64,000 bases of DNA, taken from an uncultured Bacilli bacterium (GTDB lineage: Bacteria; Bacillota_I; Bacilli_A; ML615J-28; CAG-313). A program made the position numbers and the translations under genes. The notes below the pieces were generated by a model. That model had not been told where the DNA came from. It was given only the letters and a program-made list of their open reading frames with translations, and made no database searches. Below, piece after piece: positions 43,911 through 59,612 of this stretch. Where the stretch lies: positions 1 to 64,000 of the forward strand of contig CALVCV010000004.1 of assembly GCA_944326155.1 (NCBI GenBank), written 5' to 3'. How positions within the stretch are numbered: position 1 is the stretch's first letter; every line of letters starts with the position of its first letter.

Positions 43911-45527
43911 ATGCCATACGATGGAATACTGATTCACTTTTTAATTGAAGAATTTAATACGCTACTAATTGGTGGTAAAATTAATAAAATCATTGAACCT
44001 AATGCATTAGATATCTGCTTACAAATTCGCTCTAAAGATCAAAAAGATGGAAAAATTAAAAATTATCAACTTTTTATTTCCTCATCACTCGATATGCCTA
44101 GAATCTATTTAACAAAACAAAGAATTACTTCTTTTGATACACCTAAAAATTTTTGTATGTTATTAAGAAAATATCTTGAAAGAGGCTTGATTTATAAAAT
44201 TGAACAAATTGAAAATGATCGTATTATCATTTTTTATATTGAATCAGTTAGTGAATTAGGTGATAACAATCAATTTCGTTTAATTATTGAATTAATGGGT
44301 AGAAATAGTAATATTATTTTAACTGATAAAGAAGGCATCACCATTGATGCAATTAGAAAACTTTCACCATCTGAAGATAGCAAAAGATTAATTTTGCCAA
44401 AAGCTTTATATGTTTTTCCCCAATCGAACCAGTCAGTGAATCCTTTTTTATTAAAGGAAGATACGTCTTACCAATTAGATGATTTACAAGGGGTAGCAAA
44501 AATTACAAAACAAGCCATTAATAATTTAAATTTAAATATTGTTAACTATCTAAAAAAACCTCTCAATCCTACAATTTATCAAATTGATAAAAAGTATGAT
44601 TTTTACGTCTTATCACTTTTTCCTTGCCCAGTTGCTAAAGATGGTTTCAGTAGCATTAGTGATATGCTAGAAACTTTTTATATAGAATATAAAACCATTT
44701 ATAATGACAAAGCTAAAGCATTAAAAAAAATAATTAGAAATAAAATTATTCACTTACAAACCAAACTTGATAATTTAGAAAATGATTTAACGTTAGCGAA
44801 AGATAATTTAAAATATAATAATATTGGTATTTTATTACAATCTAATTTGTATAAAGTTAAAAAAGGAATGAATAAAATTATTGTAGATGATTTTTTCCAT
44901 CAAACCAAAGTAGAAATTAGCCTTGATCCTTTACTTGAGCCTAGTAAAAACCTAAAGTACATCTTTGCCAAGGGAAAAAAAGCCAAAAATGCTTTAGTTA
45001 TGATCCAAGTTCAATTGGATATCACTCATCGTGAGATTCAATATTTAGATGAAATTTATAATCAAATTGATTTTGCTAGTAATATCGATTTAGAAGAAAT
45101 TAGAAGCGAACTAATAACGAACAAATATCTAAAAGATAAAAAACAAACCCAACCTAAACATAAGAAGTTAACTATTACAAAATATACCTTAAATGGTAAT
45201 GAAATTTTAGTTGGTAAAAATAATATTCAAAATGACTATATTACCCATAAATTAAGTAAAAATTATGACTGGTGGTTTCATGTAAAAGATGCTCCTGGAT
45301 CTCATGTGGTCTTTAAAATGCCTATGGTTGATTATGTACTAACCGAACAAGATATTCGGTATTGCGCAAATCTTGCGGCAAGTTTTTCAAAAATGAGTAC
45401 TTCATCAAGCGTTCCCGTTGATTATGTACAAATCAAGTATTTAAAGAAAATCCCTGGCATGAAAGGTTCTAATGTTACTTTTACCAATAATAAAACTATC
45501 TATATTGACCCAAATATTAAAGTTTAA
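43911..45527 (+). CDS. rqcH: Rqc2 homologue RqcH (NFACT family, formerly FbpA)
   Basis: A 538-residue NFACT protein: NFACT-N (about 1-200, starting MPYDGILIHFLIEEFN), HhH and coiled-coil arms (about 200-400), and NFACT-R (about 420-525) with DWWFHVKDAPGSHVVFKM. RqcH binds stalled 50S subunits and recruits tRNA-Ala to add alanine tails to the trapped nascent chain, marking it for degradation. The name fibronectin-binding protein is historical. Length is slightly below the 570 of Bacillus. AGAAGG precedes the ATG. Its 3' end overlaps the convergent cse60-like gene by 4 bp. Confidence 0.93.
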   Translation: MPYDGILIHFLIEEFNTLLIGGKINKIIEPNALDICLQIRSKDQKDGKIKNYQLFISSSLDMPRIYLTKQRITSFDTPKNFCMLLRKYLERGLIYKIEQIENDRIIIFYIESVSELGDNNQFRLIIELMGRNSNIILTDKEGITIDAIRKLSPSEDSKRLILPKALYVFPQSNQSVNPFLLKEDTSYQLDDLQGVAKITKQAINNLNLNIVNYLKKPLNPTIYQIDKKYDFYVLSLFPCPVAKDGFSSISDMLETFYIEYKTIYNDKAKALKKIIRNKIIHLQTKLDNLENDLTLAKDNLKYNNIGILLQSNLYKVKKGMNKIIVDDFFHQTKVEISLDPLLEPSKNLKYIFAKGKKAKNALVMIQVQLDITHREIQYLDEIYNQIDFASNIDLEEIRSELITNKYLKDKKQTQPKHKKLTITKYTLNGNEILVGKNNIQNDYITHKLSKNYDWWFHVKDAPGSHVVFKMPMVDYVLTEQDIRYCANLAASFSKMSTSSSVPVDYVQIKYLKKIPGMKGSNVTFTNNKTIYIDPNIKV

Positions 45528-45700
45528 TCTTTTATTATTATTAAGCAAGAGTAACAATAAATTTGGTTGCGACCATCATATAAAGTAGCTATGCTATATT
45601 TTATATCGATAATTTCATCATTTTCAAGATGCATTAAGAAATCATTAACTTTTTTCTCCAAATCTAATTCATGTTCTTCATCAAAAACTCTAATATACAT
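45524..45700 (-). CDS. Cse60-like sporulation protein (58 aa)
   Basis: A 58-residue acidic protein (MYIRVFDEEHELDLEKKVND..., then IIDIKYSIATLYDG and IYCYSCLIIIKD) that fits the Cse60 family of sporulation proteins: a VFDEEHE start, a central helix, IDIKYS and a closing IYCYS strand. In Bacillus, cse60 is sigma-E-dependent and of unknown function. AGGGGG lies 5 nt before the ATG but inside the right arm of a 15-bp hairpin, so transcripts entering from nth would have that site hidden. The gene is convergent with rqcH and overlaps its end. No clear sporulation promoter was found. Confidence 0.75.
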   Translation of the reverse strand: MYIRVFDEEHELDLEKKVNDFLMHLENDEIIDIKYSIATLYDGRNQIYCYSCLIIIKD

Positions 45701-45705
45701 AAAAG

Positions 45706-45757
45706 CCCCCTAAATAAATGATATACATTGTTATACCATTTATTTAGGGGGTTTTTT
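45706..45757. terminator. 15-bp hairpin: terminator of rqcH and RBS-sequestering leader of the cse60-like gene
   Basis: CCCCCTAAATAAATG (45706-45720) pairs perfectly with CATTTATTTAGGGGG (45737-45751) around a 16-nt loop. Rightward it is followed by six T, a terminator for rqcH. Leftward, its second arm contains the AGGGGG ribosome-binding site of the cse60-like gene. The nth stop codon lies at its right edge. Confidence 0.8.
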
Positions 45758-46378
45758 GTCGTATTTACATTTATCTTTATAAAAACAATCTTCACAATGA
45801 GGATTTTTAGCTAAGCATTTATAACGGCCCATAAATAAAAATAAATGATGGGCTTGATGCCATTTTGCTTCATCAATCAAAGACATTAATTTTAACTCTA
45901 CTTGTAAAACAGAGTCAGTTTTTTCAGTAATGCCCATACGTTTTGTTACGCGTTCAACATGTGTATCTACTGGAATCCTTGGAATATGATAGCCTTCTGT
46001 TAAAATCACATTAGCTGTTTTTCTACCAACTCCTGGCAAACTTTCTAACTCTTCTTGAGTATGAGGAACTTCACCATGATACTTTTCAACTAAGATTTTA
46101 CTTAAAGAAATAATATTTTTACTCTTATTGTAATTTAATCCTATCGATTTGATAATTTCTTTAACATCATTTATATCTGCTAAAGAAAGACGCAAAGGAT
46201 TTGGATATTTGGCAAAAAGGGAAGGTGTTACTTTATTTACTGCTTTATCAGTGGTTTGAGCCGACAAGCTTACCGCCACCAATAGTTCAAATAAATTATG
46301 ATAAACAAGTTCACATTTTGCATTAGGAAATAATTTTGCTAAATTTTCTAAAATAATAGTTACTTCATCTTTTGACAT
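45740..46378 (-). CDS. nth: Endonuclease III
   Basis: A 212-residue base-excision-repair glycosylase/AP lyase for oxidised pyrimidines. The helix-hairpin-helix LPGVGRKTANVIL contains the catalytic Lys, and the catalytic Asp is in IPVDTHVERV. The four [4Fe-4S] cysteines follow the C-x6-C-x2-C-x5-C pattern in KCLAKNPHCEDCFYKDKC. The start at 46378 (MSKDEVTI) overlaps the dnaD end by 14 nt in another frame; the frame is open to 46411 but those residues do not resemble Nth. dnaD-nth is the classical Firmicutes order. Confidence 0.95.
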   Translation of the reverse strand: MSKDEVTIILENLAKLFPNAKCELVYHNLFELLVAVSLSAQTTDKAVNKVTPSLFAKYPNPLRLSLADINDVKEIIKSIGLNYNKSKNIISLSKILVEKYHGEVPHTQEELESLPGVGRKTANVILTEGYHIPRIPVDTHVERVTKRMGITEKTDSVLQVELKLMSLIDEAKWHQAHHLFLFMGRYKCLAKNPHCEDCFYKDKCKYDKKPPK

Positions 46379-46982
46379 ACATTGCATCCAACATCTTTTT
46401 AATATCTTCATCGTATTCTACAGTTTGTCTTTTACTTTGGACTTTGTGATTGGCCAAAATGGCGTCCGCATATTTTAAGTGTAATTTTTTAACTTTTAAA
46501 CTTTCTAAAACGGCTTTTTTAATTTCAGTATAACTATATCCATAATCAATCCAAGAATTGATAATTGCTAAATCGGCAGGAGAACAAGGTTTGGCGTATG
46601 TTGCCTCAATATGTAAAACAATTTGGCTTAACATATCTTGTCGATTTTGAAAATCACTACGTTCATCTTGATTTAAAATAGTCGCTAAGGCTTCATACAC
46701 CCCATCAAGGCTAAATGCTTCAACACCATTATCTAAGCTGATTTCAATATAACCTTTTTGTACTAAACCTACAACAAGATTTGATATTTCATCTTCGCTT
46801 AAAGTCATCTTAGTAGTTAAATCATTGATGGATAAAATATTATCATGCTCATCTAATTTACGAAATAAAAAGATTAAAACAATTGCCTCTGCTTCACTTA
46901 ATTTTAATTGTTTATAATGATTGATAATTTCTTCGGTAAAAGAAATTGTTTTTGCTTTAATCAATTTGGCAACTGATGTCAT
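46365..46982 (-). CDS. dnaD: DnaD-family replication initiation protein
   Basis: A 205-residue primosomal protein with an N-terminal winged-helix DnaD_N domain (about 20-100, LKLSEAEAIVLIFLFRKLDE) and a C-terminal DnaB_2/DnaD domain (about 120-190, IEATYAKPCSPADLAIINSW, then YSYTEIKKAVLESL). It helps load the replicative helicase at oriC or stalled forks. It ends with TGA, which shows that TGA is a stop here. AAAGGAG lies 7 nt before the ATG. It is coupled to nth. Confidence 0.92.
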   Translation of the reverse strand: MTSVAKLIKAKTISFTEEIINHYKQLKLSEAEAIVLIFLFRKLDEHDNILSINDLTTKMTLSEDEISNLVVGLVQKGYIEISLDNGVEAFSLDGVYEALATILNQDERSDFQNRQDMLSQIVLHIEATYAKPCSPADLAIINSWIDYGYSYTEIKKAVLESLKVKKLHLKYADAILANHKVQSKRQTVEYDEDIKKMLDAMYVKR

Positions 46983-57570: not shown

Positions 57571-59514
57571 TTAGTTAATACTTTTAATCATTAATTTGCA
57601 CATTAGATTAGAAAACTCTACACTATTTTGAAGTTTAAAGCCTTCCATCAAAAGAGCTTGATTATATAAAAGATTAGCATAGTCTTTAATATCTTCAGGA
57701 TTTTCACTATATAATTTATTTAATGAAGTAAATAATTCATGATTAGGATTGATTTCCAAAATTCTTTCGGCTTTAATCTTATCATTTGTTGGCATAGCCT
57801 CAATTACTTTTTCCATTTCAAATGAAACACCATCGCCGCTTACTAAGCAAACAGGAGAATCAACAAGACGCTTTGATAAAACAACATCTTTAACCTCTTC
57901 TTTTAAAGCATCTTTTAAAGCCTTTAATAACTCTTGGCTATCTTTTTGTTTTTCCTCCAATTCTTCTTTTTCTTCTTTGGTCGTAAAATCATCTAATGTA
58001 GATTGGTTAATTGATTTAAATTCATGGTCATCATATTTATTTAAAATCTTTAAAAGAAATTCATCTACATCGTCTGTTAATATTAAAACATCATAGCCAT
58101 ATTTCTTAACAATATCCATTTGAGGCATTGATAAAACTTCCGCTTTTGATTTGCCTGAAGCATAATAGATGTCTTTTTGGCCTTCTTTCATTTGTTCAAC
58201 ATATTCTTTAAAAGTAATCATTTTATCAGAATTTACACTACTATAAATGAGTAAATCCTGTAACATTTCTTTTTTAGAACCATAATTTTCATAAGCACCA
58301 AATTTTAAATTAATACCATAATTTTTAAAGAAAGTAAGATATTTATCAAAATCTTCTTTTTGAAGACTTGCTAATTTATTTATAATCTTCTTTTCAATAT
58401 TTTTTTGCATTAATGTTAATACTTTATTTTGTTGTAACATTTCACGGCTAATATTAAGTGATAAATCACTAGAGTCTACAACACCTTTGACAAATCGTAA
58501 GTAGTCAGGAATTAACTCTTTACATTTATCCATGATAAATACGCCTTTAGAATAAAGTTGAAGACCTTTTTCATAATCAATAGAATGTAAGTTACGAGGA
58601 GGTAATTGTGGAATAAATAAAAGTGTGTCATAATTTATATTACCTTCAACATGAAACATTAGATGTAGCAAAGGTTTTTCAAAATCATAGAACTTTTGCA
58701 TATAGAACTCATCTAAGGCTTCATCTGTTACATCACTTTTATTCTTTTTCCAAAGAGGAATCATTGAATTTAAAGTGGTAAGGTTTCTCACTTCATCATA
58801 TTCACCTTCAATTTCTTTTCCTTTATCATCTAGTTTTGGTTCTTCTTTGGTCATATACATTGTAATTGGATATCTAATATAGTCAGAATATTTTTTAACC
58901 AAATATTGAAGATTATATTCATCTAAATATTGATCAAAATCAACGTCTAGTTTGCCTTCTTCACCTTTAATATTATCTTTTAAATATAGAGTAATAGTTG
59001 TACCATCTGTAACTTTACTTGATTCTTCAATTTCATAAGTATCTTCACCAGTTGAAGTAAATAAGTATCCTTTATCACTAAATGGTGACTTGGTATCCAC
59101 TACTACTTTCTTACTAACCATGAAACAAGAATAGAAGCCAACACCAAATTGACCAATGGTTTCAAGTGCATCTTTGTGTTCGTCTTTACTATTTTCTAGG
59201 TTTTTAATAAAATTGAGAGTTCCTGATTTGGCAATAGTACCTAAGTTATCATTTACTTCATCATAGGTCATTCCAATACCATTATCAGAGATGGTTAAAG
59301 TTCTTGCCTCCTTATTTATCTCAATATGAATTTCATAGTCATTACGTTTGGCAAGTGAATCGTCAGTTAATGATAAATAATGATACTTATCAATTGCATC
59401 AGATGCGTTAGACAATAGTTCTCTTAAAAATATTTCTTGATTGGTATAAATAGAATTTACCATTAAGTCGAGTAATCTTTTGGATTCAGTTTTAAATTCT
59501 TTAATTTCACTCAT
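57571..59514 (-). CDS. htpG: Molecular chaperone HtpG (Hsp90)
   Basis: A 647-residue Hsp90. The N-terminal GHKL ATP site has LLSNASDAIDKY (N-box) and DNGIGMTYDEV with GQFGVGFYSCFMV; the middle domain contains DLSLNISREMLQQN with the catalytic-loop Arg; the C-terminal dimerisation domain is present and, as usual in bacteria, has no MEEVD tail. Length fits. Upstream is a perfect CIRCE element and a TTGACA/TATAAT promoter, so it is likely repressed by HrcA and induced by heat. Confidence 0.97.
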   Translation of the reverse strand: MSEIKEFKTESKRLLDLMVNSIYTNQEIFLRELLSNASDAIDKYHYLSLTDDSLAKRNDYEIHIEINKEARTLTISDNGIGMTYDEVNDNLGTIAKSGTLNFIKNLENSKDEHKDALETIGQFGVGFYSCFMVSKKVVVDTKSPFSDKGYLFTSTGEDTYEIEESSKVTDGTTITLYLKDNIKGEEGKLDVDFDQYLDEYNLQYLVKKYSDYIRYPITMYMTKEEPKLDDKGKEIEGEYDEVRNLTTLNSMIPLWKKNKSDVTDEALDEFYMQKFYDFEKPLLHLMFHVEGNINYDTLLFIPQLPPRNLHSIDYEKGLQLYSKGVFIMDKCKELIPDYLRFVKGVVDSSDLSLNISREMLQQNKVLTLMQKNIEKKIINKLASLQKEDFDKYLTFFKNYGINLKFGAYENYGSKKEMLQDLLIYSSVNSDKMITFKEYVEQMKEGQKDIYYASGKSKAEVLSMPQMDIVKKYGYDVLILTDDVDEFLLKILNKYDDHEFKSINQSTLDDFTTKEEKEELEEKQKDSQELLKALKDALKEEVKDVVLSKRLVDSPVCLVSGDGVSFEMEKVIEAMPTNDKIKAERILEINPNHELFTSLNKLYSENPEDIKDYANLLYNQALLMEGFKLQNSVEFSNLMCKLMIKSIN

Positions 59515-59527
59515 ATGTTTTACTCCT

Positions 59528-59554
59528 TTAGCACTCAGATTAAATGAGTGCTAA
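59528..59554. promoter_or_regulatory. CIRCE operator (HrcA site) of htpG
   Basis: TTAGCACTC-N9-GAGTGCTAA, a perfect match to the CIRCE inverted repeat bound by HrcA. It lies between the -10 and the start codon, the normal position for repression. Confidence 0.95.
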
Positions 59555-59558
59555 TATT

Positions 59559-59586
59559 ATTATACCCATTTTATTCCATTTGTCAA
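59559..59586 (-). promoter_or_regulatory. Sigma-A promoter of htpG
   Basis: Leftward TTGACA (59581-59586), 16-bp spacer, TATAAT (59559-59564), directly upstream of CIRCE. Confidence 0.88.
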
Positions 59587-59612
59587 TAGGTTTAGCATTT
59601 TTTTTTAAAATA

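Follow-up and report, generated by a model that had tools for sequence, protein, structure and literature searches.

The question raised by this locus is what a long, perfect hairpin is doing directly in front of a small, putative sporulation gene, given that one arm of the hairpin holds that gene's Shine-Dalgarno (SD) sequence and that the hairpin stands between two convergent neighbours, nth and rqcH. The locus lies in a stretch of 64,000 nucleotides (hereafter, the window) from the genome (1.44 Mb, 96% complete) of a gut bacterium that is kin of the wall-less Acholeplasma group. The initial annotation had called the small gene Cse60-like, and this is borne out by its match to the Pfam family PF10957 (Spore_Cse60; E-value 1.5e-20, 73.4 bits against a cut-off of 20.7), which spans positions 4-59 of the 60 in the profile, that is, the whole domain. 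As also claimed at that stage, cse60 and rqcH overlap tail to tail, by four bases (45524-45527), and this overlap is conserved in most members of the same order (hereafter, order-mates). If rqcH transcripts end at the hairpin, they would cover cse60 in antisense over its whole length (45528-45752, plus strand). The features of the locus are collected in Table 1.

Table 1. Features of the cse60 locus, in window coordinates; promoter elements and transcription start are predictions.
Feature	Position	Strand	Basis
rqcH (NFACT family), convergent; runs antisense through cse60 and ends at the hairpin	43911-45527	+	PF05833, PF05670
cse60-family gene, 58 aa, ATG start at 45700	45524-45700	-	PF10957 match and 21 further loci in the order
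SD AGGGGG, 5 nt before the ATG, inside the right arm	45706-45711	-	sequence
Right (3') arm, as read on the cse60 strand	45706-45720	-	sequence, fold, covariation
Predicted transcription start, ~7 nt after the -10 (+/-2)	45723	-	inferred from the -10
-10 TATAAC with TGG before it (extended -10), 21 bp from the GACA box, within and beside the loop	45730-45735	-	motif
Left (5') arm, containing the nth stop codon (45740-45742)	45737-45751	-	sequence, fold
nth (endonuclease III), upstream gene on the cse60 strand, source of read-through	45740-46411	-	TIGR01083 above cut-off
T run TTTTTT after the stem, putative U tract of the rqcH-direction terminator	45752-45757	+	sequence; A run before the left arm kept in most relatives
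0A-like box TGTCGTA (TACGACA on the minus strand), putative upstream promoter element of cse60	45757-45763	+	6/7 of TGTCGAA

The perfect 15-bp stem with AGGGGG in its second arm, the starting point of the initial annotation, is as described: CCCCCTAAATAAATG at 45706-45720 pairs with CATTTATTTAGGGGG at 45737-45751, and in minus-strand RNA the stem extends to 20 pairs, one of them G-U. On the cse60 strand, the right arm is followed by CTTTT and then by the ATG, and the stop codon of nth falls inside the left arm. The GC-rich stem is bordered by a T run on either strand, in the manner of intrinsic terminators (TTTTTT on the plus strand; CTTTT on the minus strand, listed by a scan). Since TTTTTT lies 3' of the stem on the plus strand, the hairpin could end rqcH transcripts, in agreement with the terminator function originally proposed for that direction. 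For an 81-nt minus-strand RNA the predicted fold reaches -32 kcal/mol (z = -7.8; none of 200 shuffles was as good); that is, RNA coming from nth is predicted to fold the SD shut, as had been suggested. The predicted folds of RNA starting at 45730 or 45725, at 0 to -2.3 kcal/mol vs. -32 kcal/mol for the long RNA, leave the SD unpaired, and an SD that is paired in the long and open in the short RNA is the pattern of a lock of the phage T4 gene e type.

The SD-pairing score, defined as the best stem covering the SD, is 49.5 for cse60 in the window vs. a mean of 17.4 (sd 3.7) in 60 shuffles, and reaches at most 28 among the 46 other window genes and 26.5 among 139 genes near the other loci in related genomes. 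These low scores in other genes indicate that placing SDs in hairpins is no habit of these genomes, and a genome-wide habit was rejected on this basis; the hairpin at cse60 is beyond chance. A known RNA family was also rejected, since the Rfam search returned no family at its cut-off and the weak microRNA matches are those of generic hairpins.

The order was sampled with 43 genomes, 22 of which, including that of the window, carry cse60. The nth-hairpin-cse60-rqcH arrangement was found at 21 further loci besides the window's; at nearly all of the 22 loci cse60 sits between nth and rqcH with tails overlapping, and the hairpin is present at almost all of them. Two genomes (G001 and G037) lack cse60 probably through a gap in the assembly, given that no true nth is found there either (the best match in G001 is merely 25% identical). 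At one locus (L014, genome G028) the cse60 start is probably TTG, as a GTG two codons on would drop two conserved residues. The SD itself varies across the order (GGGGG, GGAGG, AGAGG, GGGTGG, GGAGGG), and the left arm varies in step with it. The check that the initial annotation had proposed, i.e., an alignment of relatives to see whether the pairing is conserved, thus has a positive outcome: 66 double-sided changes were counted vs. 22.2 (sd 4.0) in shuffles, with 0 of 500 shuffles showing as many. MAFFT alignments of whole leaders or bare arms left the arms unregistered, and the changes were counted on SD-anchored arms with artificial flanks. On these arms 91% of cells are paired, a percentage inflated by the selection of the stems for pairing, and sliding the partner out of register lowers pairing to 43-58% (56-58% for one column). 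Because of that selection, the shuffles of the SD-pairing score are the fairer test, and cse60 scores above all 60 shuffles at 16 of the 22 loci; it scores above the best of 185 other genes at 14. A run of at least four T between SD and ATG occurs at 64% of the cse60 loci vs. 4.9% of the 185 other genes, and the A run on the far side of the hairpin is kept in most loci. The loop sequences are not conserved.

By inspection, the hairpin is weak or differently placed at three loci (L011, L019, L023), which keep the gene and usually the promoter; hence, the lock is not indispensable. Low SD-pairing scores were additionally obtained at L006, L017, and L022. There appears to be another terminator after nth at L011 and L023, and before rqcH at L006, L019, and L020. 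The initial annotation had named loss of the stem in relatives that keep the gene as an observation that would speak against it. Within the order, its reading largely survives this comparison (three weak hairpins among 22), whereas outside the order, where cse60 lies at other loci, the gene is indeed found without the stem.

A promoter, which the initial annotation had lacked, can be proposed for cse60 in the form YGACA-N21-TATAAT; its GACA box lies immediately beyond the left arm and its -10 is in the loop. The spacer is exactly 21 bp at 15 of the 22 loci in the order and at 32 of 46 cse60 loci elsewhere outside Bacillaceae, compared to 0 of 25 in Bacillaceae, and no other spacer length comes near at cse60; background genes peak at 17 bp. 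A poor -10 or poor -10 spacing was noted at L007-L009, L017, L018, and L022. A spacer of 21 bp is also seen before spoIIGA (17 of 19 genomes) and before spoIIE (12 of 20), so the abnormally long spacer is shared with spoIIGA and part of spoIIE. The promoter element is kept both where it falls in the nth reading frame and where it falls on the nth stop codon, which indicates conservation at the DNA level. The window's genome has just two perfect TRYGACA-N21-TATAAT sites, and one of them is the spoIIGA promoter. The other lies at G000:C1:214129-214162 (L190). A standard sigma-A promoter (spacer of 16-18 bp) was sought at the cse60 start and none was found, the single scan match lying inside the gene. 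As separate observations, several spoIIE leaders in the window's family (L149, L151, L156, L157, L158) read TGACA-N11-TATAAT, with a spacer that is shorter by ten bases (one turn of the helix) than in the 21-bp form, and a vegetative 17-bp contrast is offered by window positions 59500-59590 (minus strand), where TTGACA-N17-TATAAT is followed by the CIRCE-like TTAGCACTC-N9-GAGTGCTAA before a 648-codon gene.

In Bacillus subtilis, spoIIG and spoIIE are the classic Spo0A-activated sigma-A promoters, with spacers of 21-22 bp; like the cse60 promoter, they combine a GACA-type 0A box near -35 with an abnormally long spacer and a TATAAT -10. What differs from B. subtilis is that such a promoter appears to drive cse60 here, as opposed to none of the 25 Bacillaceae leaders. 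The Spo0A box consensus is TGTCGAA, with G2, C4, and G5 being the contacted bases (PMC3485338), and all three are present in the TGTCGTA of the window, as expected of a 0A-box variant in the -35 region. It is on the basis of this box match, of the architecture shared with spoIIGA and spoIIE, and of the B. subtilis spacers that we name the cse60 promoter Spo0A-type, and we infer that Spo0A binds and activates it. The initial annotation's proposal of a transcription start inside the loop is supported to the extent that a conserved promoter has its -10 there and that the predicted fold of the resulting RNA leaves the SD open.

A sporulation function for the gene, as initially claimed, is also suggested by its distribution, since cse60 tracks Spo0A and SpoIIE across the order. 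The window's genome has Spo0A, SpoIIGA, and SpoIIE; Spo0A is found in 20 of the 22 cse60 genomes, the two exceptions being 70-71% complete, and a strong SpoIIE match in 21. Co-occurrence with cse60 is significant for Spo0A (Fisher p = 2e-6) and SpoIIE (p = 5e-9), in both cases uncorrected for relatedness, and a sporulation programme therefore accompanies the gene both in this genome and order-wide. The DNA-binding domain of Spo0A aligns over its full length to the solved structure 1lq1 (E-value 2.3e-56), and its gene adjoins a SpoIVB-like gene (named by eye). According to a study from 2024, spo0A is present in most Anaeroplasmataceae genomes, in a group treated as non-sporing (PMC10868615). 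B. subtilis cse60 is given as a mother-cell gene of unknown function (PMC8863042), and the title of Henriques 1997, cited in that paper, places it in a mother-cell regulon. Because the gene belongs to the mother cell in B. subtilis, and because the 21-bp promoter is absent from all 25 Bacillaceae leaders, cse60 seems to have changed over to direct control by Spo0A in lineages near the wall-less bacteria.

Where the hairpin may have come from is suggested by the order-mates without cse60. In most of these, nth and rqcH are convergent with a short, terminator-like hairpin between them that has no SD; hence, the window's hairpin is best read as a shared terminator that has been adapted, and the plain terminator would be the ancestral form. 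The T run before the ATG and the A run kept on the far side fit this reading. Of the cse60 genes beyond the order that have the 21-bp promoter, most show no such hairpin, even when lying 20-35 bp after a co-directional gene, and the idea that the hairpin is an ancestral trait of all cse60 genes was rejected accordingly. A comparable arrangement was found in the last 60 bp before the ATG at three loci (L061, L070, L091), where the right arm contains the SD, the loop contains the -10, and the promoter is of the 21-bp form; there, cse60 occupies an unrelated locus after an M23-peptidase-like gene, and the hairpin sequence is unrelated to that of the window. Other SD hairpins at cse60 were seen at L051, L074, and L096. 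In other lineages, a group of 11 loci (L053, L054, L068, L069, L072, L073, L077, L093, L094, L098, L102) has a TTCGACA-N21 promoter at cse60 and no SD hairpin, the gene directly following one of ~155 codons; two of these preceding genes were read, and both resemble the CinA C-terminal domain.

Elements of this arrangement have parallels in known systems. Ordinary bidirectional terminators between convergent genes have, like the nth/rqcH hairpin, a GC-rich stem flanked by an A and a T run; the cse60 hairpin goes beyond these in carrying the SD and the putative promoter of a third gene. For spoIIIG (sigma G) of B. subtilis, RNA reading through from the spoIIG operon upstream is believed to conceal the SD within a stem, which resembles cse60 in that RNA from an upstream unit would hide the SD of the next gene; the gene and the sigma factor are different, however, and we know of no shared terminator with a -10 in its loop in the spoIIIG case. 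A further likeness is with phage T4, where the SDs of gene e (lysozyme), soc, and I-TevI are locked only in RNA initiated upstream (PMC3014915, PMC2988022). As proposed for cse60, the long gene e RNA shuts the SD, and a promoter used later, located within the hairpin's 5' portion, gives a translated RNA without the left arm. The T4 promoters are phage late promoters, whereas that of cse60 appears to be a Spo0A-type promoter in a cellular genome, and the T4 accounts do not present the hairpin as a terminator shared by neighbours (PMC3014915, PMC2988022), whereas the cse60 hairpin looks like a bidirectional one.

Taken together, we consider it probable, from comparison of sequences, that a shared, bidirectional nth/rqcH terminator was rebuilt to include a Spo0A-type promoter and the SD of cse60, such that stray RNA is silent and RNA started internally is active. 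That is, in sporulating members of the order, cse60 would have been placed between the old terminator of the two convergent genes and rqcH, and a spoIIG-type promoter threaded through the hairpin, with its box outside the left arm, the left arm within the spacer, and the -10 in the loop. During growth, nth transcripts would mostly end at the T run before the ATG, any read-through RNA would have its SD shut in a strong stem, and rqcH transcripts would end on the other side of the hairpin. At the onset of sporulation, sigma-A transcription activated by Spo0A~P would start near 45723. Since this RNA would begin past the left arm, it would form neither the terminator nor the SD lock, and cse60 would be translated. 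The start site, the termination, and the block of translation are all deduced from the DNA and its predicted folds, and the main action of the hairpin with the T run before the ATG may be the ending of nth transcripts. Compared to the initial annotation, the gene, the pairing, and the promoter are thus backed by comparison with relatives, while the nth stop codon within the left arm and the possible main role of the hairpin as a terminator for nth had been overlooked.

The main rival explanation is that the arrangement is a by-product of compaction: a G-rich terminator arm would double as SD for lack of space, the Spo0A promoter would happen to lie there, and closure of the SD would be incidental. 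The genomes are small with overlapping genes, a plain terminator occupies this position in order-mates that lack cse60, the three weak hairpins coincide with another terminator for nth or rqcH, and most cse60 genes outside the order manage without a hairpin, all of which compaction would accommodate. Yet the hairpin is kept at L006 and L020 although rqcH has its own terminator there, and at L012, L015, and L016 despite the 142-944 bp that separate it from the end of nth upstream, and a hairpin with the SD in its arm and the -10 in its loop recurs at the unrelated locus of L061, L070, and L091. We therefore regard compaction as unlikely, albeit with appreciable weight. A more far-reaching view, i.e., that the three-in-one element (bidirectional terminator, Spo0A promoter in the loop, SD in the arm) was selected as such and arose more than once, with cse60 moved from the mother-cell regulon to direct control by Spo0A in lineages near the wall-less bacteria, is a serious possibility that we hold only tentatively and would put at somewhat below an even chance.

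The remaining alternatives give the hairpin a different function. A ribosome translating read-through RNA would reach the nth stop within the left arm (the distance is similar in about half of the relatives) and might thereby unfold the hairpin for a short time; translational coupling takes this further and has ribosomes that end nth there melt the stem and free the SD, cse60 being made together with nth from read-through RNA. This appears improbable, and as a conserved mechanism unlikely because the position of the nth stop moves: five loci (L012, L014, L015, L016, L024) keep the stem with nth ending well upstream of the left arm. In addition, cse60 has a conserved promoter of its own, and the T run before the ATG fits termination instead. 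The sequence is also palindromic and centred on the -10, as would suit an operator whose bound repressor covers the -10, but the arms vary freely in sequence with pairing kept, which fits an RNA structure and not a fixed binding site, and makes an operator very improbable. We give equally little credence to the leader of cse60 being itself a riboswitch or RNA thermometer; although the SD sits in a hairpin, RNA from the conserved promoter would lack the left arm, the loops are not conserved, and no Rfam family was matched at its cut-off.

If the preferred reading, an adapted terminator that carries the promoter and SD of cse60, is true, a compact genome insulates a developmental gene at no extra cost in sequence, packing all three signals (the terminator, the promoter, and the SD) into some 60 bp, and if the element was selected as such, a single hairpin would end two vegetative units, silence read-through, and remain invisible to its own sporulation promoter. 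The YGACA-N21-TATAAT motif would then offer a means of tracing the Spo0A regulon among uncultured bacteria related to Acholeplasma and Anaeroplasma, and the sporulation predicted for these bacteria would become testable. Finally, it would suggest that cse60, a gene of unknown function, has been rewired in these lineages to early sporulation control.
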